From Candidatus Chlorohelix allophototropha (lineage in GTDB: Bacteria > Chloroflexota > Chloroflexia > Chloroheliales > Chloroheliaceae), in contig NZ_CP128400.1 of NCBI RefSeq assembly GCF_030389965.1, forward strand, positions 248,001-312,000: a stretch of DNA of 64,000 bases, given 5' to 3'. This document shows positions 25,943-43,074 of the stretch, piece after piece (within the stretch, counting starts at the first letter, position 1; the number at the start of each line of letters is the position of its first letter). A model generated the notes under the pieces. The model was not told the DNA's origin. It made no database searches and was given only the letters and a program-made list of their open reading frames with translations. A program made the translations under genes and the position numbers.

Positions 25943-28900
25943 TTAAGGCATATTCTCAGCCCAATTAACCGTCATTGCCCCCATATCAGATGGTCCAGAT
26001 TGGTTATAAGTAAGCACCTTCAAGCTGGGAGTGTAAATCGGGTTGCGTTTATCATCGAATGAGAAAGTGCCAAGCACAGTATCAAGGTTTTTGGTTTTGA
26101 GCAAAGCTTCTCGAACCGCGCCTACTTCACATGAACCGGATGTTTTCATTGCATTCGCCAGTAATTGTATAGCCGCGTAAGAATTAGCTGCCCAGTCAAG
26201 TGGTATATTACCAAATTTGCTCTGGTAACGCTGTACAAAACTAGGATTTGTTACCTGTGCATTCATGTAGAACCAAGAGTTGGCAAAAATTGAACCATCT
26301 GCCACAGCGCCTCCTTTCCTGCCATAATCGGGATTATCCCACAAGTCTGAGGTTATAAATCTTACCGACCAAGGAAATCCTAGTTGGCGCGCTTCCTTCA
26401 TAATAGCAACAGTTTCATCAACCGAAGCTACAATGAAAATTTCCTCGGGGTTTTGCGGTTTTATTCGGGCGAGTGCAGCGTTGAAATCGGTCTCCCCTTG
26501 CTTGAATGACACATTTTCAACCACACTAACCCCTTTGCTTTGAAACGCAGCCTGAAAATCTTGAACATAAGCTTTATAATTGGGGGCGTCATTGTAAAAA
26601 AATGCTACTTTCTGATAACCCAACCGTTTTTTGGTTTGCTCAACCACATAATTGGTAATATATGTTTGGGAAATCTTATTGTTAAAAATGTTCTGTCCAA
26701 GTTTTCCATCGTAGTAACCTAATCCAGGGTTATTATCAGCCACTACAACCATTACCGCATCCTGAAACGAACTGGCATTTGTTTGATTGATAAACCCATG
26801 GTCAATAAGCATAGTTACTTTCTCAGTGTTTACCAATTTCTGGTATGCGGGCAATTGGACTTGCGTCCCCGAATCAGGTGAAGGGATTTCTTCAACTACT
26901 AGCTTTAGTTTTACCTTACTACCCAGCAAACCGGAAGCATTGATATCTTCGATTGCCATTTCAGCACCCTGCTGTTCAAACTTACCCCACATCCCTTGAT
27001 TACCGGTAAATGGCAGCAATGCCCCAATTTTTACCTCTCCATCCAAAATGCAAGAGGCAACCGGAGTGGGTATGGGGGGCGCAGTAATCGCCTTAACGGC
27101 TGAGGCAATCTCCGCCAGCCTGATAGTTTTATCCATACTACCGGAAGCAACCGTATTGCCATCAGGACTGAAGGCTACTGAAGTAACCGAATCGGTACTG
27201 CCTTCTACCATCAAAAGTAATTTACCACTTCCGGCATCCCAGACCCTTACCTTTTTATCGCTGCTACCGGAAGCAATGGTCTTGCCGTCGCCGCGATATG
27301 CTAGTGAAGTTACGCTACCTTCCTGACCTTCCAACGCAATTTTGCTTTTACCGCCCGGCACAGTGTAATCCCAGAGTTTGATGGTGTTATCTTTGCCACC
27401 CGTAGCCAGTTCCAGCCCATCAGGGCTGAACTCTACCGCATTGATTTCAGCTTGGAAATCTTTGATAGTATTCAGTTCTAACACTCCGCTGTTGTCAGCG
27501 TTAAGTTTCCAGATTTTTACAGTCTTGTCAGCACTGGCGCTGGCAAATGTTTTACTGATAGGACTGAATGCGACAGATTTGATTGGCGCAGAATGAGTGG
27601 TGAGCGTTGCTATTTTATTGTTGTTTTTAAGATCCCATACATTAACAGCATTATCTAAGCTACCGCTTAACACCTGCAAGCTGTCAAAGCTGAAAGCTAC
27701 CGAGGTAACTTCAGCGGAATGCCCCTTAAATTCATTTAAAAGCGTACCATCGGCTATACGCCATATCCGCACTATGCTATCCACACCACCACTGGCTAAT
27801 TTTTGCCCGTCTGGGCTAATAGCTACAGTGCTGGCGCTACCGGGCTGTCCTTGTAGCGCAAGGCTAACAGACCCGTTAGCCACATTGACTAAACGGATTA
27901 CACCGTCCTGACTAGCGGTGGCGATAGTTTTACCGTCTGGACTGTAACTGATTGCCAGAACCGGACTATTAATGTTAATAATAGTCGTATTGTTTATTAT
28001 CGTTACCTTTGGGCTGAATAAATTCACCACTAAAAGGCTGATAATTGTTGAAACTACTAGAAAAGATACCCCGCTTATCCAGGTAATCGGGCGGCGAAAT
28101 AATGGTTTGCCCCCGGCGTTACCGGATAGTCTAGGAGAACCGTTTCGCTTTGAATCCTTCCCACCATTAGGAGATTTATCCGGCGTAATAGACGAAACCT
28201 GCTCTGTTTGCCGGCTTTGGGTTTTTGCCTCAGCGGCTAACTGAGCCAGAGGAGTGGTAGGCTTTTCCTGAGAAAGTTGCTGTACCTTGCGATTTTCAAG
28301 TGCAGCTCTAAATTGCAGAGCAAAGGCGCTGGCAGATTCAGGGCGTGTGTGTGGGTCTTTGGCAGTAGCCTTCGCCAGTATCTCATCCAACATAGGCGGA
28401 TAAGCCAGACCGGGAGCGTGTTCTGATATTTTAGGCAACGGCGAGCTCAAATGCTGATGAGCCAGCGCTTCCTGATTTCCCTGAAAAGGGGGTTGCCCGG
28501 TTATAAGTTGGTAGGTGATGATACCAAGTGCATAAATATCACTAGATTTACCAGCTTTTCCGTTCCACTGTTCAGGAGCCATATAAAGGGGAGTGCCACT
28601 AGATGCTGATTGTACTTGCGAGGCTGAACCGGAAAGGAAAGCAGCCAAACCAAAATCTGCGATTAGCGGTTGCCCTGCTATATCAAGAAGAATGTTGGCG
28701 GGCTTAAGATCGCGGTGTATCAACCCTTTTTGATGGGCGCTGTCAAGAGCAGCCGCAATTTTGGTTAGAAGATTGGCAACCTCGGACAAAGGAAGCGGGC
28801 AAGATGAGCCACCAAGAGCAGGATGGAGTTTTGCGGAGAGAGTACCTCCTTCCGCCAAATCGGTAACTATATAACAAATACTATCTGAAGCTTCGAAATC

Positions 28901-29158
28901 ACTCACTCGCAGAATATTCGGGTGATGTAGTTGCGCTAGAATGCCGGCTTCAACTTTAATGGAATTGCGAATTTGAGGGTCAGCCACAAATTGCCGCTTG
29001 AGGATTTTAATTGCAACCACTCTAGGGGGGCTAAATTTTGTATCATCCGCTTGAAAAACCTCACCAAAACTTCCATTGCCCAGCGAACGAACTAAGCGAT
29101 ACCTTCCTCCAAGTAATGTGGCGGGAGTCTCGTTATTCTGCATCGAATCTTTCGACAT
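25943..29158 (-). CDS. Receptor-like Ser/Thr kinase: kinase-TM-WD40-LivK fusion
   Basis: A 1071-residue fusion. Residues about 20-290 are a Hanks-type kinase (LGNGSFGEVF, VAIKILK, HRDLKPANILL near 148, DFGLAAF, APEQW), followed by a charged linker and one membrane helix (about 357-382). Outside lie about seven WD40 repeats (about 400-692, repeated SVAFSPDGxxVASGSxDKTIRLW pattern). A complete periplasmic-binding-protein type 1 domain of the LivK/branched-chain amino acid class follows (about 700-1066, KIGALLPFTGNQGMWGKFEQQGAEMAIEDIN). It reads as a receptor kinase whose outer part binds a small ligand. An upstream in-frame start at 29317 was rejected because the ATG at 29158 has AGGA 8 bases upstream. 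Confidence 0.93.
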   Translation of the reverse strand: MSKDSMQNNETPATLLGGRYRLVRSLGNGSFGEVFQADDTKFSPPRVVAIKILKRQFVADPQIRNSIKVEAGILAQLHHPNILRVSDFEASDSICYIVTDLAEGGTLSAKLHPALGGSSCPLPLSEVANLLTKIAAALDSAHQKGLIHRDLKPANILLDIAGQPLIADFGLAAFLSGSASQVQSASSGTPLYMAPEQWNGKAGKSSDIYALGIITYQLITGQPPFQGNQEALAHQHLSSPLPKISEHAPGLAYPPMLDEILAKATAKDPHTRPESASAFALQFRAALENRKVQQLSQEKPTTPLAQLAAEAKTQSRQTEQVSSITPDKSPNGGKDSKRNGSPRLSGNAGGKPLFRRPITWISGVSFLVVSTIISLLVVNLFSPKVTIINNTTIININSPVLAISYSPDGKTIATASQDGVIRLVNVANGSVSLALQGQPGSASTVAISPDGQKLASGGVDSIVRIWRIADGTLLNEFKGHSAEVTSVAFSFDSLQVLSGSLDNAVNVWDLKNNNKIATLTTHSAPIKSVAFSPISKTFASASADKTVKIWKLNADNSGVLELNTIKDFQAEINAVEFSPDGLELATGGKDNTIKLWDYTVPGGKSKIALEGQEGSVTSLAYRGDGKTIASGSSDKKVRVWDAGSGKLLLMVEGSTDSVTSVAFSPDGNTVASGSMDKTIRLAEIASAVKAITAPPIPTPVASCILDGEVKIGALLPFTGNQGMWGKFEQQGAEMAIEDINASGLLGSKVKLKLVVEEIPSPDSGTQVQLPAYQKLVNTEKVTMLIDHGFINQTNASSFQDAVMVVVADNNPGLGYYDGKLGQNIFNNKISQTYITNYVVEQTKKRLGYQKVAFFYNDAPNYKAYVQDFQAAFQSKGVSVVENVSFKQGETDFNAALARIKPQNPEEIFIVASVDETVAIMKEARQLGFPWSVRFITSDLWDNPDYGRKGGAVADGSIFANSWFYMNAQVTNPSFVQRYQSKFGNIPLDWAANSYAAIQLLANAMKTSGSCEVGAVREALLKTKNLDTVLGTFSFDDKRNPIYTPSLKVLTYNQSGPSDMGAMTVNWAENMP

Positions 29159-29399
29159 TTTTATTATTCCTGAACATAATAGAACTTCGTGAGCTTGTTT
29201 TAAAAGGGGTTGATTGTGACCAAAGCCTAGTATTCCCTTGAGCGTAGTTCTAGGTAATTCAATTTCACAATAATTCGATATTGTATTAAATATATTTAAA
29301 ATGATAGAAAAAATCAATCGAAATATGGTAAAATTCCACTCACGTAGTAAAATGTAGGCTCAAACTTACACTAAAAAAGGGTTGGTAGCCCACTCGTTC

Positions 29400-30032
29400 T
29401 TAATATAAATCAAGCCGATAACCAACTCCTCTTATCGTGACAATGCAAGGCGCAGTATCAGACTTTAAGTCAAGTTTGTTTCTTAGAAACTTAATCAACT
29501 GTTCTATACTATTATTATATTCCTGACTATCTTGTAGCTCAGGTTCATAGAGAAATTGAGCTATTTCAAGACGAGTGCAAATATTACCGGCTTTATTGTA
29601 AAGATACTCAAATAGTTTCCAAGCATTCCCATTTAATTGAATTGATTGTGCTTTCCCCTTTTTCTCTCTGGTTACTTTCATCGTTCGATAGTCAATTTTC
29701 ACAGTAGAACGAGAACTTGGACCACGAGGTTCAGTAGGTGCGGGGTCTTCAAACCTGAAAATTATATTGGCAAATTCTAGTCTGTCACCGTGGTTTAGAA
29801 AAACATCACTTTTTATATCCCTCCCATTAACTTTGGTGCCATGGGTACTACCTAGATCACGAACACTGACCATTGCCCCAGAAAATTTAATAAGCGCGTG
29901 ATAGCGCGAACAACGCCCACTGTCTAGCACAATATTATTGTCAGTCGCTCTACCTATTCTTATTTCAGTACCTTTAAGGATATAGACTTGCTGGTTTTCT
30001 GCTACCAAACGTGGCAATATCTCATCTGTCAA
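29400..30032 (-). CDS. FHA domain-winged-helix transcription factor (copy 1)
   Basis: A 210-residue regulator: FHA domain (about 1-100, IGRATDNNIVL, RCSRYHALI, DLGSTHGTKVNG) and an OmpR/PhoB-type winged helix (about 115-210, LNGNAWKLFEYLYNKAGNICTRLEIAQFLY...IEQLIKFLRNKL...IVTIRGVGYRL). EmbR of mycobacteria combines the same two domain types in reverse order, and its DNA binding is controlled by kinase phosphorylation. It is paralogous to the gene at 36976. TTG start with GGAGG 8 bases upstream. It follows the FHA-ABC transporter gene by 36 bp and is probably cotranscribed with it; the LivK-type kinase gene comes next on the same strand, 240 bp on. Confidence 0.9.
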   Translation of the reverse strand: MTDEILPRLVAENQQVYILKGTEIRIGRATDNNIVLDSGRCSRYHALIKFSGAMVSVRDLGSTHGTKVNGRDIKSDVFLNHGDRLEFANIIFRFEDPAPTEPRGPSSRSTVKIDYRTMKVTREKKGKAQSIQLNGNAWKLFEYLYNKAGNICTRLEIAQFLYEPELQDSQEYNNSIEQLIKFLRNKLDLKSDTAPCIVTIRGVGYRLDLY

Positions 30033-30067: not shown

Positions 30068-32800
30068 TTAGCGACGTTGCCAGCGTCTATCTTTGCGTTT
30101 TTGAAAGAATATAGCCAGTCCAAGAAAAACCACAAATAGTGTCCCCAACATCACCAAGCGCAGTAATAACTGTCCTTCTCTTGTACCATGTTCACCTCTT
30201 GAGTTTATTTCACAAGGGTTGGTGGAATAATTTCGCGGATCATATCCTTTATCCGACTCGCAAGGTACAGAAATACCCATTGTGGGCTGGGAAAAATAAA
30301 GTTGGTTCAGGTCTGCACTTGTACCTAATGCCTCTAATGACCAGCGGCTAACCGTTGCATAGCTTAAAGCTTTGCTTGGTCCGTTTAAGTCGAAGATAAC
30401 CCCCGCAAGTATAATTTGGGGGATAAGAATCACAGGTACAATGCTTATCGCCTTATCGGTATTTGAAGCAATAGTCGATATAAACAAGCCCATCCCGACA
30501 CCACCAAGCGTTGTCAGAAATACTCCTAGGCATAGCTCAAAAAAAGCAGAGAAGAACACCCCATGCGGTGGGACTCCGACAATTAGCAGCACTATTCCCA
30601 CCAGCATTAAGGTCTGTACAAGAGATAGGATAGCTAATACTATGACTTTGGATAAAATATATGGAACAACTCCCAGATTAACCATCCGTTCCCGCAAATA
30701 TATAGCGTTTTCTTTAGTGATTTCGCGAGCCGAATTATTTGTGCCAAGCCACACCCCGGCGATTGAGAGCATAAATAAAATTCGTTGCCCATCTGCCGGA
30801 GAACTACCTATATTCCAGATATTTTGCCCACCCACCATCGCCAGAATTAAGCCAATTATCGGAGCCTGTAATAATAATACCAGCAGATTTACTCTATCTC
30901 TGAACAACAATTCGATATAACGCAACGCAAGCAGACTGAACTGACGAAAAGGTTTTTGTTTCGCTATAGTCGGAATTGCCGTGGTATTTGGCTTTAAATT
31001 GAGCCGGGACTGAGGTTTGGCTATATATGTTTGGTAATCTGCAGAGCGTCTGAATTTATCTTCCCACTCTGCCGGGTTATTTTCTGTAGCCTCTAGTTTA
31101 CTGTAAATGTCGGCAAATTCGTTCACCTCGAAAAACTTCAAGGCTTCTGCCGGCGGTCCAAAATAGCAAAGTCTACCGCCTTTACCCAGAAAGGCAACTT
31201 TATCACATACATTGATATTTGCAGTGGCATGCGTAACCAGCACCACAGTGCGTCCTGCATCTGCCAGTCTGCGTAACAAAAACATTAATTTCTTGTCAAG
31301 ACCGGGGTCTAGCCCAGAGGTAGGTTCATCCAGAAAAAACAACACCGGACGCGCAATCAGTTCTGCTGCAATAGAGGCTCTTTTTCGCTGCCCACCGGAG
31401 AGTCGAGTAATCTCAACGTTTCGGCTGGAAGTTAACTCCACGTCTTTTAGAACCTCTTCTATCCTGACTTTAATTTCTGCTTTTTTTGTATCGGGGGGCA
31501 GTCGTAATTTTGCAAGATAATACAAAGCTCTTTCAACCGTTAATTCCCGATGGATAATATCATCTTGTGGAACATAGCCCAGTTGATTGCGATAGGTTGC
31601 GAAATTAACATAATAGTCCTCACCATTTATTATTACCTGCCCCTCATCTGCCGGGCGAAAGCCATTCAAGGCATCCATTAATGTTGATTTACCGGCACCA
31701 CTACCACCTACCAGCGCCACCAACTCAAGTGGTTTTATTGAAACCGAAATGTTGTTGAGTAATATTCGGGTGCTTCCGGCTTTTTTGCTCAGCGCTACGC
31801 CATCCAACCATATCTGGCTGGAATCAAACTGGGTGAGATTCTTACCATTATAAGTTAAACGATAGCCTGCAATCTGTAACTTATCTCCGGGGAAAATTTC
31901 AACCGATTTTCTGGTGACCTTTTTATCATTAATAAATGTACCGTTTGTGCTGCCAAGGTCCTGAATTTTAGCTAGATTTTGCCCCTTAGTAATGACCGCA
32001 TGGTGTGCCGAAACCTGCGGAAAGTTCAACACCACCACATTATCTGGCGTTCGTCCAATAGTAATTACTTCAAGTTCTGAGCTTATATCAAAGACCGTTT
32101 CCAAGCTTGGAATGGGTTTACCGTAATCAAGGTAGCTAAGAGTTACAATATTTCCCAGTGCATCTCCGATTCTCAATATGTCTTCATTTTTTAGAAGTAG
32201 CTCGTCTAAATGCTCACCGTTATAAATCAAGCCGTTTGTAGATTTAAGATCTCGGATAAAAAATGTATCACCACTGGCGGATAAATCGGCATGCCAACGT
32301 GAAATTACAGATACAGGAATGACAATATCATTGTCTTCCGAGCGTCCAATTCGGAATCTCGGTTTATCTAGGATATATTCTTTGGTATGTTCAATGTTAT
32401 TAATAAAGTAAGTGACTTTTAAGCGAGGTGCTTCTTTCCGCGCAAATTGGGTTTTAAGCATAGGGCTATCTGGTTCTTGAGGCTTAATGTTCTCCGAATT
32501 CCGTTGAGTTACAAAAAATGATACAACTCCCCCTAATTGTATTCTATCACCGGGTTTAACTATAGTCGTCCCCTCTCGGACTGTTCCATTAATTGTTAAG
32601 GGAGCTTCCGCCCGCAATTTTTCTATAGTTAAATTTTCTGCTTCAATAACCGCTTTTAAATGATGAGAAACCACCTCTGGATAATTTAGAACAAGGTTAT
32701 TAGTTAAATCGCTTCCTATTGTGAAAGAGGCTGTATCGGGTAAATATTCACCGATTATTCTACCGTAAGCGCTTAATACTATTTTGGTATTGTTGGTCAT
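30068..32800 (-). CDS. ABC transporter (ABCG/ABC2 type) with three N-terminal FHA domains
   Basis: A 910-residue half-transporter. Three FHA domains in a row: about 5-95 (degenerate, IGSDLTNNLVL...VSHHLKAVI, no clear N in the loop), about 130-225 (IGRSEDNDIVI, SRWHADL, DLKSTNGLIYNG) and about 245-325 (IGRTPDNVVVL, SAHHAVI, DLGSTNGTFIN). Then an ATP-binding cassette (about 345-560: GGSGAGKST, LSGGQRKR, LFFLDEPTSGLDP) and about six membrane helices of an ABC2 permease (about 640-905). Mycobacterial Rv1747 has the same plan with two FHA domains and is controlled by a Ser/Thr kinase. Substrate unknown; a lipid or glycolipid is likely by analogy. Divergent from the hydrolase at 33028. Confidence 0.93.
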   Translation of the reverse strand: MTNNTKIVLSAYGRIIGEYLPDTASFTIGSDLTNNLVLNYPEVVSHHLKAVIEAENLTIEKLRAEAPLTINGTVREGTTIVKPGDRIQLGGVVSFFVTQRNSENIKPQEPDSPMLKTQFARKEAPRLKVTYFINNIEHTKEYILDKPRFRIGRSEDNDIVIPVSVISRWHADLSASGDTFFIRDLKSTNGLIYNGEHLDELLLKNEDILRIGDALGNIVTLSYLDYGKPIPSLETVFDISSELEVITIGRTPDNVVVLNFPQVSAHHAVITKGQNLAKIQDLGSTNGTFINDKKVTRKSVEIFPGDKLQIAGYRLTYNGKNLTQFDSSQIWLDGVALSKKAGSTRILLNNISVSIKPLELVALVGGSGAGKSTLMDALNGFRPADEGQVIINGEDYYVNFATYRNQLGYVPQDDIIHRELTVERALYYLAKLRLPPDTKKAEIKVRIEEVLKDVELTSSRNVEITRLSGGQRKRASIAAELIARPVLFFLDEPTSGLDPGLDKKLMFLLRRLADAGRTVVLVTHATANINVCDKVAFLGKGGRLCYFGPPAEALKFFEVNEFADIYSKLEATENNPAEWEDKFRRSADYQTYIAKPQSRLNLKPNTTAIPTIAKQKPFRQFSLLALRYIELLFRDRVNLLVLLLQAPIIGLILAMVGGQNIWNIGSSPADGQRILFMLSIAGVWLGTNNSAREITKENAIYLRERMVNLGVVPYILSKVIVLAILSLVQTLMLVGIVLLIVGVPPHGVFFSAFFELCLGVFLTTLGGVGMGLFISTIASNTDKAISIVPVILIPQIILAGVIFDLNGPSKALSYATVSRWSLEALGTSADLNQLYFSQPTMGISVPCESDKGYDPRNYSTNPCEINSRGEHGTREGQLLLRLVMLGTLFVVFLGLAIFFQKRKDRRWQRR

Positions 32801-32911
32801 ATTTTTTCTTATTTGTTGTTATTAAGAGTGTCACTAAGCAACAAAATTATTACACAAAAAGATTAGAAACTCCAATTTAACATAAAAGTCGATTTCCCTA
32901 ATTATAGCTTT

Positions 32912-32939
32912 GCTAAGGCTTACTTAAGCGACAGTTAAG
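32912..32939 (+). promoter_or_regulatory. Three 11-bp-phased hexamer repeats (winged-helix site candidate)
   Basis: GCTAAG (32912-32917), CTTAAG (32923-32928) and GTTAAG (32934-32939) are spaced exactly 11 bp apart. A 25-bp part (32920-32944) matches 24 of 25 bases at 42686-42662. It lies 10 bp upstream of the -35 of the hydrolase gene and between it and the divergent FHA-ABC gene. Confidence 0.65.
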
Positions 32940-32949
32940 TGCAATCTAT

Positions 32950-32982
32950 TTGTCAAGTATCTTTCCAAGATATTACTAAAAT
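32950..32982 (+). promoter_or_regulatory. Promoter of the hydrolase gene
   Basis: TTGTCA (32950-32955) with TACTAA (32974-32979, 18-bp spacer), continuing AAT. It aligns base for base with the promoter of the gene at 42572, which has CTGCCA and TTCTAA at the same offsets. Confidence 0.55.
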
Positions 32983-33027
32983 GGGAGTATCGTAAAAAGA
33001 TTTAATAACTGTTTCGAATGAAAGCGG

Positions 33028-33906
33028 ATGCAAAAAATGAAAAGAAATATTTATGGCGCTATCTTTTTGTTAGTATTTGTGGTGGGCTTATCTGGGTTAA
33101 TTTCTTCACAATTTATTCTGAACAATAATATTTCTAAACAAATTAATCCAAATAATAAAGTAATCGTTTTTGTACATGGAATTCGTCCTCCCACCGATTG
33201 CGCTTCACGAGATGTAAAAGCCGATATTGGTGCAGAAACATTTGGAGAAATTAAGAAAGAACTCATCACAAAAACCGGAATAGAAGAAAACCGTTTTTTC
33301 TATTACAACTATTCATTCACTCCCTCAAATCTTTTTTTAGAAGACTGTCGTGATACTTGGGCTTCGCTTGCTACCCATACTGAAAAGTTAAACAGCTTTA
33401 TTTCCACCATCGTTCTAAAAAACTATCCTGATGCAGACATTACTTTTATTTCGCATTCGTTGGGCGGTTTATTAGTGGCTAATTGGCTTACAGCTACAAA
33501 GTCCGATTATCTTAAGCATTTAAATTCTTTGATTACAATTGATAGCCCTCTTCGTGGGGCTAGCTTAGCTGGAATCTGCGACAATTTAGCGGTTTCGTTT
33601 CTCGCGCCAGTTTGTAATGACCTCAAGTTGGGTAGTAGCACCATTCGTCAGGTAGAGCAGTTAGCCCCGTCTATCACAAAAATCTATAATATTCGAAATA
33701 TGGCGGATGCAATTGTAAAGCCTGAAGAAGCTTATCTGGATGGCGCAGCCGGAATACTCGACCTTAATGTCAGCTCCTACGGCAATTTTACTGAGCATAA
33801 CGTTGGGCTAGCACACCCCGAAGCTCTTAAATTTATCGTATCCATCGTAAACGATGCAAGAAAATTCCCCTCCTTTATCTTTGGTCGTGAAAGCGCGTTA
33901 GGTTAA
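33028..33906 (+). CDS. Exported or membrane-anchored alpha/beta hydrolase (lipase-like)
   Basis: A 292-residue protein with an N-terminal membrane or signal helix (about 6-28, GAIFLLVFVVGLSGLISSQFIL). The alpha/beta-hydrolase fold follows: FVHGIRPP oxyanion region near 48, nucleophile elbow SHSLGG near 141-146 with the central Ser, TIDSPLRGA, a likely acid in the AD or EAYLDG region and a His in the late EHNVGLAHPE. Probably a lipase, esterase or acyltransferase working outside the membrane. Two ATGs (33028, 33037) are possible and neither has a strong ribosome site. Its promoter carries the phased repeat shared with the gene at 42572. Confidence 0.8.
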   Translation: MQKMKRNIYGAIFLLVFVVGLSGLISSQFILNNNISKQINPNNKVIVFVHGIRPPTDCASRDVKADIGAETFGEIKKELITKTGIEENRFFYYNYSFTPSNLFLEDCRDTWASLATHTEKLNSFISTIVLKNYPDADITFISHSLGGLLVANWLTATKSDYLKHLNSLITIDSPLRGASLAGICDNLAVSFLAPVCNDLKLGSSTIRQVEQLAPSITKIYNIRNMADAIVKPEEAYLDGAAGILDLNVSSYGNFTEHNVGLAHPEALKFIVSIVNDARKFPSFIFGRESALG

Positions 33907-34035
33907 GCATCAAATTAGATTTCTGAAAAAATTCTCAGAAATCTTTCAGATAACCCTCTTATATCTGATCAGATTAACAAATTATGATACAGGTGTGCTT
34001 CGCAGCAAATAATTAAGTGAAAGGATAATAACGAA

Positions 34036-34785
34036 ATGACTGAAAGTAATTTTCCTGTTCCGGCTTACCAGAACAATCTTTCCGAGACTCAACTAGTCCC
34101 GATTATTGGTACTGTAAATTGTAGCGGTGGTGTGCCTTTGCTAGCTATACCGATAAAATCCGGCACTGTTCGCGCATATATTCCAGGTTTCTCTCCGGTT
34201 TTTGTTTTGGCACGTAACCCCGGTATCACCTGGATGGAAGTTGCTTTTCTCACCTCAACCGGTGACATGGTCAATGGCTGGATCGAAGCCGTGTATATAA
34301 CGGATATTTACAAAGACCAGCGCAGTGTTAATCCGCTTGATCTACGCATTTCGCAATTTGAAAATAATACCCTTCATGAAATCGCCGAGTATCGCGCCAC
34401 AATTGCTCCCGGTTGGAAACAGTCCCTTACCTATCTATGCGGATTTCTTATTCCGTTTGGAGCAGTAGGTACGATGGCTGCATTTGGTAATCACGCTTCC
34501 GGTGTAGGCGCAGGCTTAGCAGTAGCCTTGGTTGTGCTGATTGCCACGATTGTAGCACTTAAAAAATCGCATCCGGGTAAGGCAGAGTTAAAACGGCTTG
34601 AGCTTATCCGGCGAGCGCGGCAGGGATCAATCCTCAATATCAAGGAAGATGCCAGAAAAGCTATGCTGCTAACCGGGACGTTAGCAGGTTCTTTATTAGT
34701 CGGTAAAACAGCACTAGATGTGTACTTAAAAACCCGCCCTACTAAATCAGTAACCAGAACAGATATTAATATACATCGTTGGTAG
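34036..34785 (+). CDS. Membrane protein with SH3-like N-terminal domain (paralog of 40794)
   Basis: Unknown function, 249 residues. The N-terminal about 120 residues are beta-rich and SH3-like (VPIIGTVNCSGGVPLLAIP...ARNPGITWMEVAFLTSTGDMVNGWIEAVYI). Two hydrophobic helices (about 138-185) follow, then a basic Arg/Lys segment and another hydrophobic stretch. The second half of the protein at 40794 has the same order and closely similar text (ARTPNEKWFNVIYTSTIGQNVLGWIQ; later PTKS/PTKTEST, NLNVNI/DINIH), so both are one family. AAAGGA lies about 10 bases before the ATG. Confidence 0.72.
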   Translation: MTESNFPVPAYQNNLSETQLVPIIGTVNCSGGVPLLAIPIKSGTVRAYIPGFSPVFVLARNPGITWMEVAFLTSTGDMVNGWIEAVYITDIYKDQRSVNPLDLRISQFENNTLHEIAEYRATIAPGWKQSLTYLCGFLIPFGAVGTMAAFGNHASGVGAGLAVALVVLIATIVALKKSHPGKAELKRLELIRRARQGSILNIKEDARKAMLLTGTLAGSLLVGKTALDVYLKTRPTKSVTRTDINIHRW

Positions 34786-35133
34786 TATAAATCACATCTT
34801 GCACTAAGTTCAACCTTAGTGCAAGAGATCAGTAAGATTAATAATCATTAAGAATAAACCAATAAAGTTTAGTTGCTAATAAGCGATCTTTAGATTATAC
34901 TAAAGATACTATAAAGGAAATCAGAACCTCGCATCCAGCGCAATGTAGCCGATACCAGTTAATTTGAATATCTTCAACCCATGTTAGGGTTAAGTTAATT
35001 TTGCCAAAGTGAAAATAAACATTGCAGCAGGAAAATAATTGGTGAAAATCTTCACTTGTTAATATACAGTAAAATTTTTTTCATAACCGCTAAAATTAAT
35101 TTATAATTTTAGTCAGCCTTGGAGGATATTTGT
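34786..35133 (+). other. Gap with a terminator-like hairpin and kinase leader
   Basis: A perfect 11-bp hairpin (34798-34808 with 34815-34825, arm CTTGCACTAAG) sits 12 bp past the upstream stop; it lacks a T-run, so it may protect the mRNA end or pause polymerase. The rest is AT-rich leader of the kinase gene with no other clear signal. Confidence 0.55.
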
Positions 35134-36960
35134 ATGGCAGAGCGTAAACCAGGCGATATTATTCTTGGAAAATATGAGATCAAACAGCGCTTGGGTAAGG
35201 GGGGTGGGGGTGTAGTATATCTCGCCTATGAAGCATCTTTGCGTCGAAATGTAGCAATAAAAGAACTGATTAATTCCTCTGATCTTCGTCAAAGTGGACA
35301 ATTCGAAGAACTTAATAACCGCTTCGAACGTGAAGCCATTCTGAACGCACAATTCACCAGTTATCCTGTCATTACAATTTATGGTAAAGAAATTGACAAG
35401 GATGGAAATATTTTTCTGGTTATGGAGTTAGCGCCCAGAGGTTCCCTTTATGACCTATTACAAAATCGGCAGGGTAAACCAATGTCTCTGGATGAATTTT
35501 ACCCACTTGCTTACGATATTCTAAAAGCGGTCAAAGCGATTCACGCTCACCCATCCGGGATTGTACATCGGGATGTAAAGCCTTCAAACATTTTACTGAC
35601 AGACAACGGCGCAAAGTTGGCGGATTTCGGAGTAGCCCAACTGGCGGAAGAATCATCGCGTAGCCGGATTCTATCAAAAAGCCATCCCGGTACGCCGCTC
35701 TATATGTCTCCAGAACAGGAAAAAGATACTGGTTATCTGGATAATCGCAGCGACCTGTATTCAATTGGTCTGGTTTTTTATGAGATGCTGACCGGGGAGC
35801 GCTATAAGATGAAGCGCGTAATGCCGCCTAGCAAGCTCAATAGCGCTGTTACCCCAATGCTAGATTACATTATCCAGCACATGATTGAGCAAGATCGAGA
35901 TAAGCGCTACAACACTGCCGATGATATTCTTGCCGATATGGAAAAGGCAAAGCGTGGGGCGATGCCACCAGAAATGACCGTACCTAACCCCGCACCTCCA
36001 ACTGTGGTGATACCTCCAGTGCCGTCAACCTCCCCGAAACCAACAAAGAAAAAGGGTGCGCCTGTAGTGGCGATTTTAGTCGGGTTGGTGATTTTGATTG
36101 TCGCAGGGGTGGGAGCATTCTTTGCTCTTTCCAGTAATTCAGGAACTTCACAGGCAGCAGTAGCTGCGACCGCTACTTCGGTTCCAACCACAACTATCGC
36201 TGAGCCGACTGCAACCGTGACTCCCGTCCCGACTGCTACTCCGCAGCCGACTGCAACCGTGACTCCTGTCCCGACTGCTACTCCGCAGCCGACTGCCACG
36301 CCTACAGTAGCGCCAACCGTAACCCCGTTACCAACCGCTACGGTAGCAGCCACAACGGCAACCACTGCTGCGGGAACCCCGACTAACCCTGTAAGTTTAC
36401 CTTTTGAGGATAACTTTAAGGGTGGCGCAAAAGCCGACTGGAGACCTGTAAATGAGCAAGGTAACAGTAAGTGGGCAGTAGATAACGGAGGTTATACTCT
36501 CCTATCAGGTGGTAAAGGAGCAGTATTTATCGGTGACACAAGTTGGGAAAATTACAGCTTAAAAATAAAAATATGGGAGTTACCTGGGGAACTTGCTCAA
36601 GTATCTATTTTGGTGCGTTATCAGGATGAGAGTAATTACCTATATCTTAACTTAAGTGGTAATTCTGCTCAATGGATATCAATCAAAAATGGTCGCCCTA
36701 CCCTCTTAAACCGGGATGCCAAATGTTATGCATTCAATGCCTTCGGTAATTGCGGCTATCTCAGTCCCCTTGAATTAAATATAGTAGTGCAAGATACAAA
36801 CATTTATGCCTACAGTGGTACAACGGAAATAGCCAAGTTTGAAGCTACTACTGATACTAAAGATTTGATACCTCTCAAGGGTTATGCTGGTATTAGAATT
36901 GACATGAAAAATAATAATAAGCCACCCCGAATTGAGAGTGTAAAGATAAGCAAGGTTTAG
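35134..36960 (+). CDS. Membrane Ser/Thr kinase with ConA-like lectin outer domain
   Basis: A 608-residue receptor-like kinase. Hanks kinase at about 10-265 (LGKGGGGVVYLAY, VAIKEL, HRDVKPSNILL, DFGVAQL, YMSPEQE), a membrane helix at about 309-332 (VVAILVGLVILIVAGVGAFFAL), a Pro/Thr-rich stalk at about 340-420 and a 185-residue outer domain resembling concanavalin-like/DUF1080 glycan-binding folds (LPFEDNFKGGAKADWR...WENYSLKIKIW...ILVRYQDESNYLYLNL...YAGIRIDMKN). It may sense wall or extracellular glycans. The ATG at 35134 has GGAGG 8 bases upstream; a TTG at 35119 is in frame but lies inside that signal. The FHA-winged-helix gene follows 15 bp later, so kinase and regulator form an operon. Confidence 0.92.
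   Translation: MAERKPGDIILGKYEIKQRLGKGGGGVVYLAYEASLRRNVAIKELINSSDLRQSGQFEELNNRFEREAILNAQFTSYPVITIYGKEIDKDGNIFLVMELAPRGSLYDLLQNRQGKPMSLDEFYPLAYDILKAVKAIHAHPSGIVHRDVKPSNILLTDNGAKLADFGVAQLAEESSRSRILSKSHPGTPLYMSPEQEKDTGYLDNRSDLYSIGLVFYEMLTGERYKMKRVMPPSKLNSAVTPMLDYIIQHMIEQDRDKRYNTADDILADMEKAKRGAMPPEMTVPNPAPPTVVIPPVPSTSPKPTKKKGAPVVAILVGLVILIVAGVGAFFALSSNSGTSQAAVAATATSVPTTTIAEPTATVTPVPTATPQPTATVTPVPTATPQPTATPTVAPTVTPLPTATVAATTATTAAGTPTNPVSLPFEDNFKGGAKADWRPVNEQGNSKWAVDNGGYTLLSGGKGAVFIGDTSWENYSLKIKIWELPGELAQVSILVRYQDESNYLYLNLSGNSAQWISIKNGRPTLLNRDAKCYAFNAFGNCGYLSPLELNIVVQDTNIYAYSGTTEIAKFEATTDTKDLIPLKGYAGIRIDMKNNNKPPRIESVKISKV
36205..36288 (+). repeat. Two 42-bp tandem repeats in the kinase stalk
   Basis: Two almost identical 42-bp units (one C/T difference) encode PTATVTPVPTATPQ twice. 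Such a repeat can change in copy number by slippage and so alter stalk length. Confidence 0.85.
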
Positions 36961-36975
36961 AGCAGGTCTAAAGAT

Positions 36976-37626
36976 ATGGCAGAAGTTGATTACCCCCGTC
37001 TAGTAGCAGAAGACGGTGAAGTACATGTGCTGGGTGCGCCTTCAATAAATTTGGGGCGCGCCCCCGATAATCATATTGTTTTGAGAAGTGAGCGTTGTTC
37101 GCGGCATCACGCCGTTATCTCTTTCAGCAATGGGCGTTGTTATCTGCGCGACCTTGATAGTAAGAACGGCACTTATTTGAACGGGGTATTGATAAAGACC
37201 AGCCATATGCTCGCAGATGGTGACCGGATAACTATCGGAGGGCTTGTCTTTAATTTTGAAGATTTGATGATCACCAGAACCGATAGCCTAGTAATAGACC
37301 GAACAGTGTCACTTCGTAGCCGCATCTTGCCCGATCCCAATCGCTTGCAAGTAACAATAGAGCGAGAGGGTCGGCGCGAGACTTATACTCTGAACGCTAA
37401 TCAATGGAAACTTTTCTGGCTTTTCTATCAAAAATCCAGTCAAGTTGTGACAAGAGACGAAATTTCAAGAGCTATATATCCGGTCGATAACCCTAACCCA
37501 GATTTTTACGGCGGACCCATTGAAACGCATGTTTCGCGTTTGCGTAAAGCTCTAGCAATGGACAACGATAACACCGTACCCTATATCCGAGCGATTAGGG
37601 GTATGGGTTATAAACTGGAATGTTAG
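36976..37626 (+). CDS. FHA domain-winged-helix transcription factor (copy 2)
   Basis: A 216-residue paralog of the gene at 29400 with the same order: FHA (about 1-100, LGRAPDNHIVL, RCSRHHAVI, DLDSKNGTYLNG) and an OmpR-type winged helix (about 120-216, LNANQWKLFWLFYQKSSQVVTRDEISRAIY...IETHVSRLRKAL...IRAIRGMGYKL). The kinase gene ends 15 bp upstream, which suggests that the kinase and the phosphothreonine-reading regulator work as one signalling pair. The target site is unknown; the phased TAAG repeats near 32.9 and 42.7 kb are candidates. Confidence 0.9.
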   Translation: MAEVDYPRLVAEDGEVHVLGAPSINLGRAPDNHIVLRSERCSRHHAVISFSNGRCYLRDLDSKNGTYLNGVLIKTSHMLADGDRITIGGLVFNFEDLMITRTDSLVIDRTVSLRSRILPDPNRLQVTIEREGRRETYTLNANQWKLFWLFYQKSSQVVTRDEISRAIYPVDNPNPDFYGGPIETHVSRLRKALAMDNDNTVPYIRAIRGMGYKLEC

Positions 37627-37815
37627 CAAGGTTGCAAAACCGATAGCTTATTGCCAGATTTATGAAAACCTTTAACGTAGTAAATAGCTTATAACTAAAG
37701 CGGTAAAGGTTAGAGAAATCCCAAAATAAATATTAAATCCGACCAGTTGTTAGCCAAGTTGTATTGCCTGGATTTTATTAAGGTATGCCTGAATCTGGAC
37801 TGAAAGGAAATTAAA

Positions 37816-38556
37816 ATGTCTAACTATGGACAACAAATGATTAATCAGAGCAATGCGGAAGTAGTAGCACTACCGCCATTTTTACAACCGGTTGAGAAGA
37901 AATTCTTATGGTTATCAATAGGTATAACCGGAATCGCCCTATTAGTCGGAATCGCCTTTGGTGCTATTGCTTTAATCGGTGGAACAAACTCAGCCTCGTC
38001 CAGAGTGGTTGCCACAGTAGCCAATTCCACCAGTTTTTATGCCACCTCTTTTAACCAATCGGGCAGCTTTAATTCCTCTACTTACGCCGGAACAAGTACT
38101 GCTTCCCTTGGTGGGTCTAGTTCAGATGGTGGAAACCAAGTAGGTTCTGCCGATACCTCTTCTGTGAATCTGCCTGTAGCGGTTTATCCGGGCGCACGCT
38201 TAATCACCTTGAAACCCGAACAGCAAAGAGATACTGCGCTTGCGCTGGGCTTCGGCAAGCTAATGGGTTTGCGGAATACCGAGTATTACGTATTTGCAAG
38301 CAGTGACTCCAAAGATAAGGTAGCTGCCTTTTATCAACGCGAGTTTGCCAGTAAAGGCTATCAGACCGCCGCTGCCGGTACTTCAACCAATATTCAAGGG
38401 CTTGGCGCAACTAAAATCAGTTTGGCAGGGGTTAACATTGTCTCCATTGGTTTTGTAGAAGGGCAGAACAATATGAAATATATTGAAGGCAATACCAACG
38501 GATTGACCATCTACGCAGTAGTTTGGGCGGAAGGTCGCTATGAAGATTTGATGTAA
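37816..38556 (+). CDS. Membrane-anchored protein with YPGA-type outer domain
   Basis: Unknown function, 246 residues. A short head with LPPFLQPVEKK, one membrane helix (about 32-55), a Ser/Thr/Gly-rich linker (about 60-115) and an outer domain of about 125 residues that begins VAVYPGARLI and has EYYVFASSDSKDKVAAFYQREFASKGYQ. This pattern occurs in many small surface proteins with a fold of the YPGA plus FYxxEL type, without known activity. AAAGGA lies 8 bases before the ATG. It continues the row of membrane proteins next to the kinase. Confidence 0.72.
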   Translation: MSNYGQQMINQSNAEVVALPPFLQPVEKKFLWLSIGITGIALLVGIAFGAIALIGGTNSASSRVVATVANSTSFYATSFNQSGSFNSSTYAGTSTASLGGSSSDGGNQVGSADTSSVNLPVAVYPGARLITLKPEQQRDTALALGFGKLMGLRNTEYYVFASSDSKDKVAAFYQREFASKGYQTAAAGTSTNIQGLGATKISLAGVNIVSIGFVEGQNNMKYIEGNTNGLTIYAVVWAEGRYEDLM

Positions 38557-38615
38557 AACCTATTTGGGATAGGGATTTAGTAGGAAATTGGAGCGATTGT
38601 ACTATTACAAGAAAG

Positions 38616-38676
38616 AAAGGAGCGGCGCATCCTCTGCGCTACTTGTACAGGCAGGCATTGCGCCGATTGAAATATG
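38616..38676 (+). promoter_or_regulatory. Ribosome site separated from ATG by a hairpin
   Basis: AAAGGAG (38616-38622) is followed at once by CGGCGCA (38623-38629), which can pair with TGCGCCG (38659-38665). Eight bases later comes the ATG (38674). Folding the 43-base hairpin would bring the site to a normal 8-base spacing. No other ribosome site is near the ATG. Confidence 0.5.
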
Positions 38677-39612
38677 GAAAATACAATTGATGAAATTCAG
38701 CAAGCTATTGAAGCAGGCGAAATAGAACGGGCGCGTCTTTTATTGCGAGATGCCTTGAAACAACCCGATGCCAAAATCTATTACCTCGCCTCGAAAGTGG
38801 CTTTAAATGAAAATCAGCGTCAAAGTTTTCTACAGAAAGCCATTGAACTCGATCCTCAATACGCAGAGGGGAATCAGACACTAGAGCAACAAGTAAATCC
38901 GGTGGCTGTTGCTGAAACTCCTGTTCAATACCAATACGGCATGCAACCTGAAAACGCTATGACGGTTGCCCAGGCAACTGTAACTCCAGAGTACCCTATC
39001 AACTATAACCTATCTACATCGCCCCAACAGGTATATAACGTTATACAACCGGGGTATGCTATCAAAAAACCGAAATTCCCTAAAATTCTAGTTATTGGCG
39101 CACTTGTTTTAGTAGTAATCGGGGTGCTAGGTATAATTATTGCCGTAATAAGCGCCTCTAACTCTTCTTCTAAAAATTATGGCAGCTCAAGTAGCAGTAG
39201 CGGCTATAGCCGCCCAACCGCTACGCCCGACCCCAGAGTTTACATTTCTTCATATAAATGTCTAACCAGCGGTTATGCAGAGCAAATCGGTACTTACTTT
39301 GAAGCCTGTGCTGATCCATCAGATTTTTACCCGTCAGTTAATGGCAAAATCAATCTCTATTACAGACTGATTTCTAATACCAAGCCAGTCTCTGGAACAT
39401 CTGTAAATTTTAGATTTTACTCCAAATTAACCTCAGAGACATGTTCAAGTTATACAAATTCAAGTGGTATAGCTACTTGCTCTATTCCTGTAGGCGGCAA
39501 AGGGATGTTCCTATCCAGTGGCGAAACAGAAGCTTTTACAATCGTTGCCAAAGCCACCTATAGCGGTAAGGACGTTGGCGCTACTGCTTATGCCACCGCT
39601 TATGGTCAATAG
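38674..39612 (+). CDS. Paralogous membrane protein A: helical repeat head, TM, Ig-like outer domain
   Basis: Unknown function, 312 residues. The first about 75 residues form a TPR-like helical head (IQQAIEAGEIERARLLLRDALKQ...YYLASKVALNENQRQSFLQKAIELDPQ) shared with the genes at 39849 and 40794. One membrane helix (about 132-155) follows, then a Ser-rich linker and an outer beta domain (about 185-312) with four Cys that may pair (YKCLTSG, FEACADP, SETCSSY, IATCSIP). The head is of the kind used for protein contacts inside the cell, so it may bring kinase signalling to the membrane. Translation may depend on a hairpin in the leader. Confidence 0.75.
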   Translation: MENTIDEIQQAIEAGEIERARLLLRDALKQPDAKIYYLASKVALNENQRQSFLQKAIELDPQYAEGNQTLEQQVNPVAVAETPVQYQYGMQPENAMTVAQATVTPEYPINYNLSTSPQQVYNVIQPGYAIKKPKFPKILVIGALVLVVIGVLGIIIAVISASNSSSKNYGSSSSSSGYSRPTATPDPRVYISSYKCLTSGYAEQIGTYFEACADPSDFYPSVNGKINLYYRLISNTKPVSGTSVNFRFYSKLTSETCSSYTNSSGIATCSIPVGGKGMFLSSGETEAFTIVAKATYSGKDVGATAYATAYGQ

Positions 39613-39848
39613 CGAAAAGCACAATTTTCTGGAAGTAATAGGGAACAGTTAAGTTGTCCCCTTTATCAAAGAATCTGTTTAAGAAAAAGGGCAATCCGGG
39701 AAAGGCGGAAAAGCTATAAGGTCTGACGAAACTCATAGAAGGCAATGTCAATGGGTAGATTGTCCTAAGGATGGTTTAAGTTAAGACTGCTTAGAGGATT
39801 TGATTTAACAAGCGAGTTTTAAAATATTCTAAAAAGTGGAGCATAAAT

Positions 39849-40730
39849 ATGGACGAGCAGATTAAACAAGCGATTGAGGCGGATAATATAGAAGAAGCGC
39901 GCCGCCTTATCAGAGAAGCATTGCAAAATAACCCTACCGCCGACACTTATTATTATGCCGCGCGCGTAGCCTTGAATGACCAGCAGCGAGAGTCATTTCT
40001 CAAGAAAGCGTTGGAGCTTGACCCCTGGCATGAGCTTGCTGCTAATGAGTTGGAGAAACTTTCGAGCAGGCAACTAGCTCCGCTAATGGAATATACTCCG
40101 ACAGTAGCTAATCCCGCTTCTCTTGAAATACAAACTGCTATTCCAACTGTAACAGCAACGGTGGTTCATAAAAAAGGCGTACCCGTCTGGACATGGTTGA
40201 TGATGGGTGTGGCTGTGATGGTGGTTGCAGGGGTAATTATTGGCGCACTCGCGGTTGTAAGCTCTAATAACCAGAACGTATCGGCAACTGCCACCGCCGA
40301 GGCTTATAAGCTAGCCGCTACCGCTACCGCGTCGGTTCCCACACCTACGCCCAAGCCGGTTGTTATCGCCAGAAGCGTAGGGTGCTTACCTGAAATTACC
40401 GACAAGACCTATACTACCGAGCCGATGATGCAGGTTTGTGTAACACCGAAAAATCCGGGTCAATACAGTGATGTCACGGTTTATGCCCGCATTTTACAAA
40501 AACGTCAGCCTACTTCTGGACTAGGGGCATATGCTTATTTTAATTACCGATATTTTCCAGCAAGTCTAAATAGTCTTACGGATGCAGACGGCATTGCGAG
40601 AATAAGGGTCAATACCGGAGTTATCACGGTTGATTATCCGGTACGAGTAGATATCACCTTTTTTGACTCGTCTGGCAAGAAGATACAGTACACACCCAAA
40701 GCAGATGAGAATATTTTTACGCCAGAATAA
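39849..40730 (+). CDS. Paralogous membrane protein B: helical repeat head, TM, Ig-like outer domain
   Basis: Unknown function, 293 residues, same plan as the gene at 38674: TPR-like head (about 1-75, IKQAIEADNIEEARRLIREALQNNPTADTYYYAARVALNDQQRESFLKKALELDP), a membrane helix (about 117-140), an Ala/Thr-rich linker and an outer beta domain (about 175-293) with two Cys. GGAG is 9 bases before the ATG. The 236-bp gap upstream holds two TAAG hexamers 11 bp apart (39764-39769, 39775-39780) and a possible promoter TTGATT-17-AATATT (39800-39828). Confidence 0.75.
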   Translation: MDEQIKQAIEADNIEEARRLIREALQNNPTADTYYYAARVALNDQQRESFLKKALELDPWHELAANELEKLSSRQLAPLMEYTPTVANPASLEIQTAIPTVTATVVHKKGVPVWTWLMMGVAVMVVAGVIIGALAVVSSNNQNVSATATAEAYKLAATATASVPTPTPKPVVIARSVGCLPEITDKTYTTEPMMQVCVTPKNPGQYSDVTVYARILQKRQPTSGLGAYAYFNYRYFPASLNSLTDADGIARIRVNTGVITVDYPVRVDITFFDSSGKKIQYTPKADENIFTPE

Positions 40731-40793
40731 AGCTGGGTAAATCTAACGCAACCATTTGTAGCTTGGTTATTATCAAGTAGAAAGGCAAAAGTT

Positions 40794-41951
40794 ATGGCAG
40801 AAAATAATATTGAGATTCGCAACGCAATTGACTCATTTGAAATTGATCAAGCCCGCAAATTATTACGCGATGCCTTTAAGCAAAACCCTGATGGCGAGAC
40901 TTATTACCTAGCTTCCTTGGTAGCCATCAGTGAGAGCCAGAAAAAAAGCTTTCTGGAAAAAGCCATTGAGCTTGATCCTTTTCACGAGGAGGCACACCGG
41001 ACACTTGAAAATAAGACCGTTACCTTGGATAAACCTGTAATTCCTGATCGTAAAGAGGATAAATCTGCTGCCATTTTGAGGCAGGTTAAGGAGGAAGCCA
41101 CCCGCAATTTGGAGCAGGTAACAGACAGTAAGGTCGTGCCACTCAAGCCGGATGATCAGCGTCTGGATATGCTAGTGCAAATCCAGAATGGTGAACAGCT
41201 TTATATAACTGGCACAGTAGTCAGCACCGAGCGTTATAACCTCTTTACCATTCCTCATGTAAAAGGAATGGTGTGTGCTAGCGTTCCACCAAGTGCAAAC
41301 TTGATTATGATTGCACGTACCCCCAACGAGAAGTGGTTCAACGTGATTTATACCAGCACCATCGGTCAGAATGTGCTGGGTTGGATCCAGTCTCCGGCAA
41401 TTGAGAAGATAAGTTTGCTTGAAAAGGAAGTTAATCTGCTGGATTTACCTATTACCAATTTTGAGTATAACAACCGGGATGAAGTGGTAGAGCTTTTAAA
41501 GCGCGATCGCAAACCGTGGCTTATACCGTTAAGAATAATTCTGGGGATAATCACGGCTTTCCTGGCTATAATAGGTATTGCACTAGTTTCTACTGAATCC
41601 AGCTACTCTTATTATTCTGAAAGATACTATTCAACTGGAAATGGCACTGCCGGAGTAGTGGTATTAGTAATAGCTGCTTTATTCCTAGTAGGGTTTATTC
41701 TTACTTTCACTGCCTTTAAGGGCATTAGATTTCCCAAGTTAGAGCGGGAGCGAATTAATCGCATACGCCGGAGCAAGCAGAGTGAAGGTGAGAACCGACG
41801 TGAGGACATGTTTAACGCTGCAAAAATTGCGGCGGGAGTGGCTGCAACCGGGTTAGCTGCTACGGTTGGGGTAAAAGCCTTGTTCAAGTCTATGCCCACT
41901 AAAACTGAAAGTACAAGCAATCTTAATGTGAATATCCGAGATCAACGCTAG
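40794..41951 (+). CDS. Paralogous membrane protein C: helical repeat head fused to SH3-like membrane module
   Basis: Unknown function, 385 residues. It joins the TPR-like head of the two preceding genes (about 1-75) to the SH3-like and two-helix module of the gene at 34036 (about 130-385), so it is a bridge between two local families. The second half has GTVVSTERYNLFTIPHVKGMVCASVP, the WFNVIYTSTIG...GWIQ stretch, two hydrophobic helices (about 240-310) and a late hydrophobic segment. AAAGG is 9 bases before the ATG; the gene starts 63 bp after the preceding stop and is probably in the same transcript. Confidence 0.75.
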   Translation: MAENNIEIRNAIDSFEIDQARKLLRDAFKQNPDGETYYLASLVAISESQKKSFLEKAIELDPFHEEAHRTLENKTVTLDKPVIPDRKEDKSAAILRQVKEEATRNLEQVTDSKVVPLKPDDQRLDMLVQIQNGEQLYITGTVVSTERYNLFTIPHVKGMVCASVPPSANLIMIARTPNEKWFNVIYTSTIGQNVLGWIQSPAIEKISLLEKEVNLLDLPITNFEYNNRDEVVELLKRDRKPWLIPLRIILGIITAFLAIIGIALVSTESSYSYYSERYYSTGNGTAGVVVLVIAALFLVGFILTFTAFKGIRFPKLERERINRIRRSKQSEGENRREDMFNAAKIAAGVAATGLAATVGVKALFKSMPTKTESTSNLNVNIRDQR

Positions 41952-42260
41952 CTAGAAAACCATTGAAGGTAGTGGATAAGTCATTCAAAAACTAGGGGCA
42001 ATGTGTTAGCTTCCCGAACGTTCAGCCTTGAAGGGTTGTACCGATTTGAACCGCTGGAACGTAACCGGGGCAGCCTTTATGCACCAGACGGTAATCTTGA
42101 AAGAGTCTAAAATTAAGTATAGGCTCATAAAGCCTGTGTTTTGCTTAGCGATACAAACTGCCGCCTATAAGACGGCAGTTTGAAACCGATTAAAATGCGA
42201 AGTGGTTATGCAAAAAGCTTGGGGGGGAAATTTCAGAGCTTATTAAATGGGATAACTAAA
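41952..42260. other. Gap between convergent genes with one hairpin
   Basis: Holds an inverted repeat AAACTGCCG/CGGCAGTTT (42155-42163 with 42173-42181) that may end transcription from either side, though T-runs are short. Nothing else is recognised. Confidence 0.5.
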
Positions 42261-42572
42261 TTAAGCTGCTTTGTCTGCTGGCAAAATACGGTGTTTGAGT
42301 TTCTTTTTGATAGTCCGAAGAGCTTTAGGGTTTTTATATATGGTGATAATTGATTGCTGATTTGCGCTTAAAAGAACAGTGACACCTATCAGTTTTTGTA
42401 CCCAGTCCAAGTTTCGATCTTCTCTAGGAATATCTCTTTCACCTAAGAAATAAAAGCAAATACCTGTTTTTCTCTCAATGCGACCATGGTTTAGGATATA
42501 ATATATTTCTTGCTGGTTGAAATTCCTTTGTCGCATACGACGAGTCGCATGATAAGTTAAGCCTGCTTCCAT
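42261..42572 (-). CDS. DUF4258-like small protein
   Basis: 103 residues. YHATRRMRQRNFNQQEIYYILNHGRIERKTGICFYFLG and the late VTVLLSANQQSIITIYKNP follow the pattern of DUF4258 proteins (H-ALxRMxxRxI...VLxxG...VVxxxxxxVITVY), small proteins near the RelE/BrnT toxin folds. No antitoxin partner gene is adjacent. Start: ATG with AGGA 8 bases upstream. Its promoter region (42622-42694) is homologous to that of the hydrolase at 33028, including three phased hexamers, so both should be controlled by the same activator. Confidence 0.6.
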   Translation of the reverse strand: MEAGLTYHATRRMRQRNFNQQEIYYILNHGRIERKTGICFYFLGERDIPREDRNLDWVQKLIGVTVLLSANQQSIITIYKNPKALRTIKKKLKHRILPADKAA

Positions 42573-42626
42573 TTTTGATATCCTTTCAGTTATAATGCTA
42601 ACTAATCTTCTTTATTTGCTCTAATT

Positions 42627-42694
42627 TTAGAAAATTTCTGGGAAAATATTTGGCAGATACCTTGCACTTAACTGTCGCTTTAGTAAATCTTATG
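42627..42694 (-). promoter_or_regulatory. Phased hexamer repeats and promoter of the DUF4258-like gene
   Basis: Read on the minus strand: CATAAG (42694-42689), CTAAAG (42683-42678), GTTAAG (42672-42667), each 11 bp apart. CTGCCA (42656-42651) and TTCTAA (42632-42627) follow at the same offsets as in the hydrolase promoter. Two copies of one regulated promoter. Confidence 0.65.
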
Positions 42695-43074
42695 TAAGCC
42701 GTGATTAGAAACAGTTTCGGTATGAAAATTCTGAGAAATGGTAAGAGATAAAGAACAAATCGGTGGTTTTTGTTGAGCGATATTAAGAAATGCTCTTCCG
42801 CAACTTCGATACTGTTTGCGAAATCAGCTTTTATCCCTAATTTGGAGTAATTACGCAGGTCCTTGACAAGGCTGTAAAATAAAAAGTCTGATAGCAACAG
42901 AAGAATTGCAACTAAGAACCGAAAATGCCGCACAGACACTGGCTATAAGCTCAGTAACTGCTCCAATCATCGTGCACACTGGTTCCCTTAAAGCGGGATA
43001 CGCAAAAATTTCTAAGCCAGTTATTGGCTCGCTGGGATTATTCTATGACCATTACGACTCTATTGCACCAACGA

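Follow-up and report, generated by a model that had tools for sequence, protein, structure and literature searches.

Direct repeats of 11 bp form the pho box of PhoB, an operator of the OmpR/PhoB class. In Mycobacterium tuberculosis, one report describes the PhoP operators as 7-bp repeats with a 4-bp spacer (PMC4832192). Regulators of the SARP/EmbR type combine an OmpR-type winged helix with a BTAD domain, and SARP promoters have 11-bp repeats that stop 8 bp short of the -10 element (PMC10936776). EmbR of M. tuberculosis contains a winged helix, BTAD and FHA, in this order, and is controlled by the kinase PknH (PMC4601284), while Rv1747 is an FHA-ABC transporter with the kinase PknF (PMC3908365). 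Here we describe a duplicated intergenic segment with 11-bp repeats in a gene cluster that encodes Ser/Thr kinases, an FHA-ABC transporter and two FHA-winged-helix proteins.

The genome of 'Ca. Chlorohelix allophototropha' L227-S17 has 6,086,194 bp in 5 contigs (replicons of 2.96 Mb, 2.45 Mb, 375 kb, 241 kb and 55 kb; PMC10972752), and the window, the whole 64,000-nucleotide stretch analysed, covers positions 248001-312000 of contig C2. Two intergenic sites in the window were aligned over about 108 bp. Copy 1 (32897-33005, + strand) is located upstream of a gene for a lipase-like alpha/beta hydrolase (PGAP1/DUF676-like by Pfam; 33037-33906, +) and is divergent from the FHA-ABC operon, while copy 2 (42602-42709, - strand) is located upstream of a gene for a DUF4258 protein (42261-42572, -; Pfam). 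In BLASTN, 85 bp align at 78% identity (E 6e-11). The local alignment scores 76, while about 3,000 random segment pairs from the window score no more than 31, and 73 of 104 positions are identical overall. Judged from the alignment, the two sites are certainly diverged copies of one ancestral segment, so the hexamers they contain count once, not twice. The first-pass annotation had presented them as one promoter found twice, and as independent sites they do not hold up. It had also described an alignment that continues without gaps past the best-matching part; this is correct, and the similarity is longer than was claimed. Even if every regulatory reading fails, the segment is a well-documented local duplication.

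The homology ends about 30 bp ahead of both likely start codons (33037 and 42572), and both copies lie at an equal distance ahead of a gene and in the same orientation relative to it. For the lipase-like gene, the position of the ribosome-binding site makes 33037 the likely start rather than 33028. Homology extending across the ribosome-binding site as far as the start codon was also considered and rejected, since its score was no better than that of the window's other start regions. The two genes are unrelated, as the annotation had stated. No homologue of the lipase was found in the 40 relatives searched. The DUF4258 protein has homologues (56–59% identity) in the family relative "Chloroflexi bacterium 54-19" (MKTJ01; G003 below) and in a further relative, G004, and neither orthologue has the repeat box ahead of it.

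The repeat box itself was confirmed by reading the sequence. In copy 1 the three TAAG-like hexamers are GCTAAG (32912-32917), CTTAAG (32923-32928) and GTTAAG (32934-32939) on the + strand, and in copy 2 they are CATAAG (42694-42689), CTAAAG (42683-42678) and GTTAAG (42672-42667) on the - strand, at 11-bp steps in both. The agreement of 24 of 25 bases also stands, at the core TTACTWAAGCGACAGTTAAGTGCAA (32920-32944, +). Nowhere is the segment better conserved than in this core (24/25 compared with 73/104 overall; permutation p 0.013, or 0.022 with a shorter block), and such clustering of matches is moderate evidence that selection may have acted on it. CTTAAG is self-complementary, and the core therefore has an inverted-repeat reading (ACTTAA-N7-TTAAGT in copy 1) beside that of a direct repeat; a single base interrupts this inverted repeat in copy 2.

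The self-match at lag 11 in the two 39-bp boxes is 16/28 and 15/28, with shuffle means of about 7, and the boxes beat shuffles at p ~0.0015 and 0.007 with any lag of 5–16 allowed, values that apply to boxes picked out of 64 kb. In order to compare, background rates were taken from samples of 464 kb of this genome and 523 kb of G003. A lag-11 self-similarity of 14/22, as in the boxes, is reached at 38 places in the 464 kb, and exact 4-mer triples occur in the window 1–5 times per spacing. By itself, the 11-bp periodicity of the window boxes is at background level in this genome, and the special status that the annotation gave to it is lost. The weaker hexamer pair reported at 39764-39780 is present, with CTAAG at 39766 and, 11 bp further on, TTAAG at 39777, but as a single pair it is within chance.

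The annotation also placed a -35 and a -10 at equal offsets in both sites. A spacing of 21 bp separates TTGTCA (32950) from TAAAAT (32977), and scanning for sigma-70 promoters gave no match at the proposed elements of either site. TAAAAT itself (32977-32982, +, in copy 1; 42624-42629, -, in copy 2) is a conserved, possible -10. The chance that the segment has a promoter function is about even. A promoter shared by both genes is plausible, because the copies precede genes, the homology stops about 30 bp before the starts, the box is the best-conserved part and TAAAAT is kept. To call it a regulated promoter found twice is an overstatement, given a single duplication, no regulon and DUF4258 orthologues that lack the box. 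An RNA leader was rejected as a reading of the segment, as there is no Rfam match and no stable common fold (fold z -1.3 and +0.5).

Exact matches of the 18-mer core were found only at copies 1 and 2 in the 6.09-Mb genome. None was found in the genome and viral collections, from which the window's own genome is possibly absent, and the segment was not found among plasmids. A search with a profile built from the two copies, run on the genome and on eight relatives, revealed no further copy. Weak profile matches at C2:1812677 and C1:776163 and in relative G002 were rejected on inspection: the best weak match lies within an HD-GYP-like coding frame, the G002 pair lies within a methylase-like frame, C1:776163 lacks the box, and none of the weak matches inspected has the box ahead of a gene. 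The pattern WAAG-N7-WAAG-N6-TTAAG has 3 occurrences genome-wide, one of them outside the two copies, compared with 5 for the reversed control. Counted by hand, pairs of TTAAG in the genome number 8 at 11 bp, 14 at 10 bp, 18 at 12 bp and 11 at 13 bp, with no excess or preference at 11 bp. A genome scan for the three hexamers had been proposed as a check; it did not give the many random copies that would speak against the annotation, but it gave no regulon either. By these pattern searches, there is no sign of a genome-wide set of sites. A regulon of the OmpR/PhoB type would have several operators ahead of genes, and here two copies and one further match were found in 6.09 Mb.

Two FHA-winged-helix proteins are encoded nearby, as the annotation had reported, each with FHA followed by Trans_reg_C (FHA E 1e-22, Trans_reg_C E 2e-12; Pfam). 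The gene for protein 1 (29400-30032, -) follows that of an ABC transporter carrying three FHA domains (30068-32800, -; Pfam), in a series of genes that point away from copy 1. Protein 2 (36976-37626, +) is 40% identical to protein 1. Homologues of full length occur widely across the class, for the most part at about 30% identity, and the only close one is that of protein 2 in G003 (41%). The GR, SR.H and N.G motifs of the FHA domain are invariant, and the PDB relatives include the Rv1747 FHA domain and EmbR. Like EmbR, the two proteins combine in a single chain a winged helix and an FHA domain that has the residues for binding phosphothreonine. No BTAD domain is present; Pfam gives FHA and Trans_reg_C only.

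Compared with the described systems, the segment resembles SARP (AfsR) promoters in that its direct repeats, spaced by one turn of the helix, lie ahead of what would be a weak core promoter. One of the SARP-type spacings (11 or 22 bp) is present, at 11 bp, with self-similarity at background. However, GTTAAG ends at 32939 and TAAAAT begins at 32977, which leaves about 37 bp instead of the 8 bp of the SARP rule, and the SARP-type target proposed in the annotation does not fit (PMC10936776). The cluster's candidate regulators share with EmbR the FHA domain, the OmpR-type winged helix and the link to kinases (PMC4601284), but have FHA first and lack BTAD. Because of the 37-bp gap, the domain order and the absence of BTAD, we do not assign the locus to the SARP or EmbR systems, although it could work in a similar way. 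With OmpR/PhoB operators the segment shares 11-bp direct repeats, and the candidates carry the corresponding Trans_reg_C domain; unlike that class, there are no genome-wide sites and an FHA domain takes the place of the receiver domain. The predicted FHA-ABC transporter (30068-32800) adjoins Ser/Thr kinases, an arrangement reminiscent of Rv1747 and PknF, and, unlike Rv1747, is accompanied by FHA-winged-helix proteins. Further along, at 25943-29317 (-), one protein consists of a Ser/Thr kinase, seven WD40 repeats and Peripla_BP_6 (Pfam), and might sense a small molecule directly.

A possible link between the box and these proteins comes from G003. The two-copy profile has a weak match there (13 bits, E 0.87), immediately 3' of the FHA-winged-helix homologue, which reads TGCCAGCTAAC TGCCAGCTAAC TGTCAGGTAAC, that is, three near-perfect 11-bp direct repeats containing GCTAAC/GCTAAC/GGTAAC at 11-bp steps. 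This triple, GCTAACTGCCAGCTAACTGTCAGGTAAC, is located in the gap that separates the FHA-winged-helix homologue from the gene after it, 99–131 bp from the start of the latter. No other lag-11 triple of at least 18/22 (threshold 0.82) starts a new place in the 523 kb of G003 sampled, and the triple has TAACTGTC in common with the window box, on opposite strands (p 0.028 against shuffles). Searching five genomes (about 35 Mb) for a pattern of three SNTAAS at 11-bp steps gives five matches, located at four places, and 0 for the reversed control. Copy 1 and the G003 triple are among these places, and since the pattern was drawn up after both were known, its rarity counts as evidence and these two matches do not. 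At the other two places, no FHA-winged-helix gene was found within the 1.5 kb read. No clear comparable 11-bp triple flanks FHA-winged-helix loci outside G003, the genes of the window included and copy 1 excepted. Seen in a single relative, where it may be a slippage repeat, the G003 triple is suggestive of a link to the regulator. G003 also contains a four-fold 11-bp tandem, GGTAAGGRAAG (G003:C55:27709-27747), between peptidase-like and thioredoxin-like genes, with no FHA-winged-helix gene near it. For the gene behind the FHA-winged-helix homologue, homology to the 37816 gene of the window seemed likely by eye and was dropped, as BLASTP gave no match.

The explanation that we tentatively prefer as the best overall, at somewhat under an even chance, is a duplicated promoter with a repeat box, for which the FHA-winged-helix proteins are the candidate activators and the kinases the gate. 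An intergenic segment of about 108 bp would have been duplicated inside the gene cluster, leaving one copy about 30 bp ahead of the lipase-like gene and the other at a similar distance ahead of the DUF4258 gene. The segment would be a weak promoter with TAAAAT as -10 and no good -35, and its upstream direct-repeat box would recruit an OmpR/PhoB-type winged-helix activator; the cluster's two FHA-winged-helix proteins are the candidates, and the cluster kinases may gate them through phosphothreonine. What is observed is the duplication, with its uniqueness, its position and its unevenly distributed conservation, as well as the domains of the neighbouring proteins, while promoter activity, activator binding and kinase gating are what we infer from them. 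Taken alone, control by the FHA-winged-helix proteins is a reasonable though doubtful hypothesis. For the phosphothreonine-gated activator suggested by the annotation, the G003 triple offers the independent support of a single case, against which stand the missing regulon and the other loci without a triple. A broader proposal, which we regard as unlikely, is that the FHA-first winged-helix proteins of Chloroflexota are phosphothreonine-gated factors that act on three 11-bp TAA(G/C) repeats by their own clusters, and that the duplication captured a second gene. If true, this would provide a first candidate for the DNA target of the FHA-first winged-helix proteins; two of these are encoded in this cluster, and related ones occur in many other Chloroflexota. 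It would also give a compact model of Ser/Thr kinases directly controlling transcription, and a clear case of a gene gaining regulation by capturing a copied promoter.

The main rival is a neutral duplication in a rearrangement-prone cluster, without a shared regulatory role and with a coincidental 11-bp repeat, which is quite possible if not probable. The background-level periodicity, the absence of other sites in the genome and the other local paralogues of the cluster all agree with it, and copy 2 adjoins a scarred stretch with a short relic that is also found beside a transposase-like remnant on chromosome 1. The better conservation of the core (p 0.013–0.022) argues against it and would have to be due to chance or partial gene conversion; the same distance and orientation of both copies ahead of a gene and the retained TAAAAT are not expected either. 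A shared promoter read by another regulator, an OmpR/PhoB response regulator or a palindrome-binding protein instead of the FHA-winged-helix proteins, would suit the inverted-repeat reading of the core, imperfect as this is in copy 2. We consider it distinctly unlikely, for a general regulator should have more sites, and the G003 triple beside an FHA-winged-helix homologue would then be a coincidence.

The inverted arrangement around 32.9–42.7 kb, together with a lipase that is absent from all relatives searched, might suggest a mobile island of 9.7 kb with the copies as its terminal repeats, facing inward. No transposase or integrase is among the genes identified between the copies, no target-site duplication was seen outside the repeat ends when the flanks were read by eye, and genes of the FHA/kinase theme are present to either side of copy 1, so that a mobile island is very improbable. 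Still less credible is a coding origin, in which a gene was duplicated and the segments are its 3' ends. An open frame of 113 aa (42598-42939, -) encloses copy 2, the same-frame translations of the copies are alike with stops at nearly the same place, and mismatches fall 8/8/14 by codon position, a weak bias. This origin was rejected, as the core of copy 1 has an in-frame stop and the frame has no Pfam match and no relatives other than the second copy and the 86-bp relic to which it is antisense. Lacking both a Pfam match and an independent relative, the frame is probably not a gene.

The relic (42846-42931; 86 bp) is 91% identical to C1:2116490 on chromosome 1, beside the transposase-like remnant. 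On the + strand it appears to resemble the start of a transposase gene, and the chromosome 1 counterpart has no Pfam match. Elsewhere in the cluster, the proteins at 38674, 39849 and 40794 have a similar N-terminus by eye, and those at 34036-34785 and 40794-41951 are paralogues (28% identity, E 3e-17). Such local paralogues indicate that the cluster has grown by local duplication.
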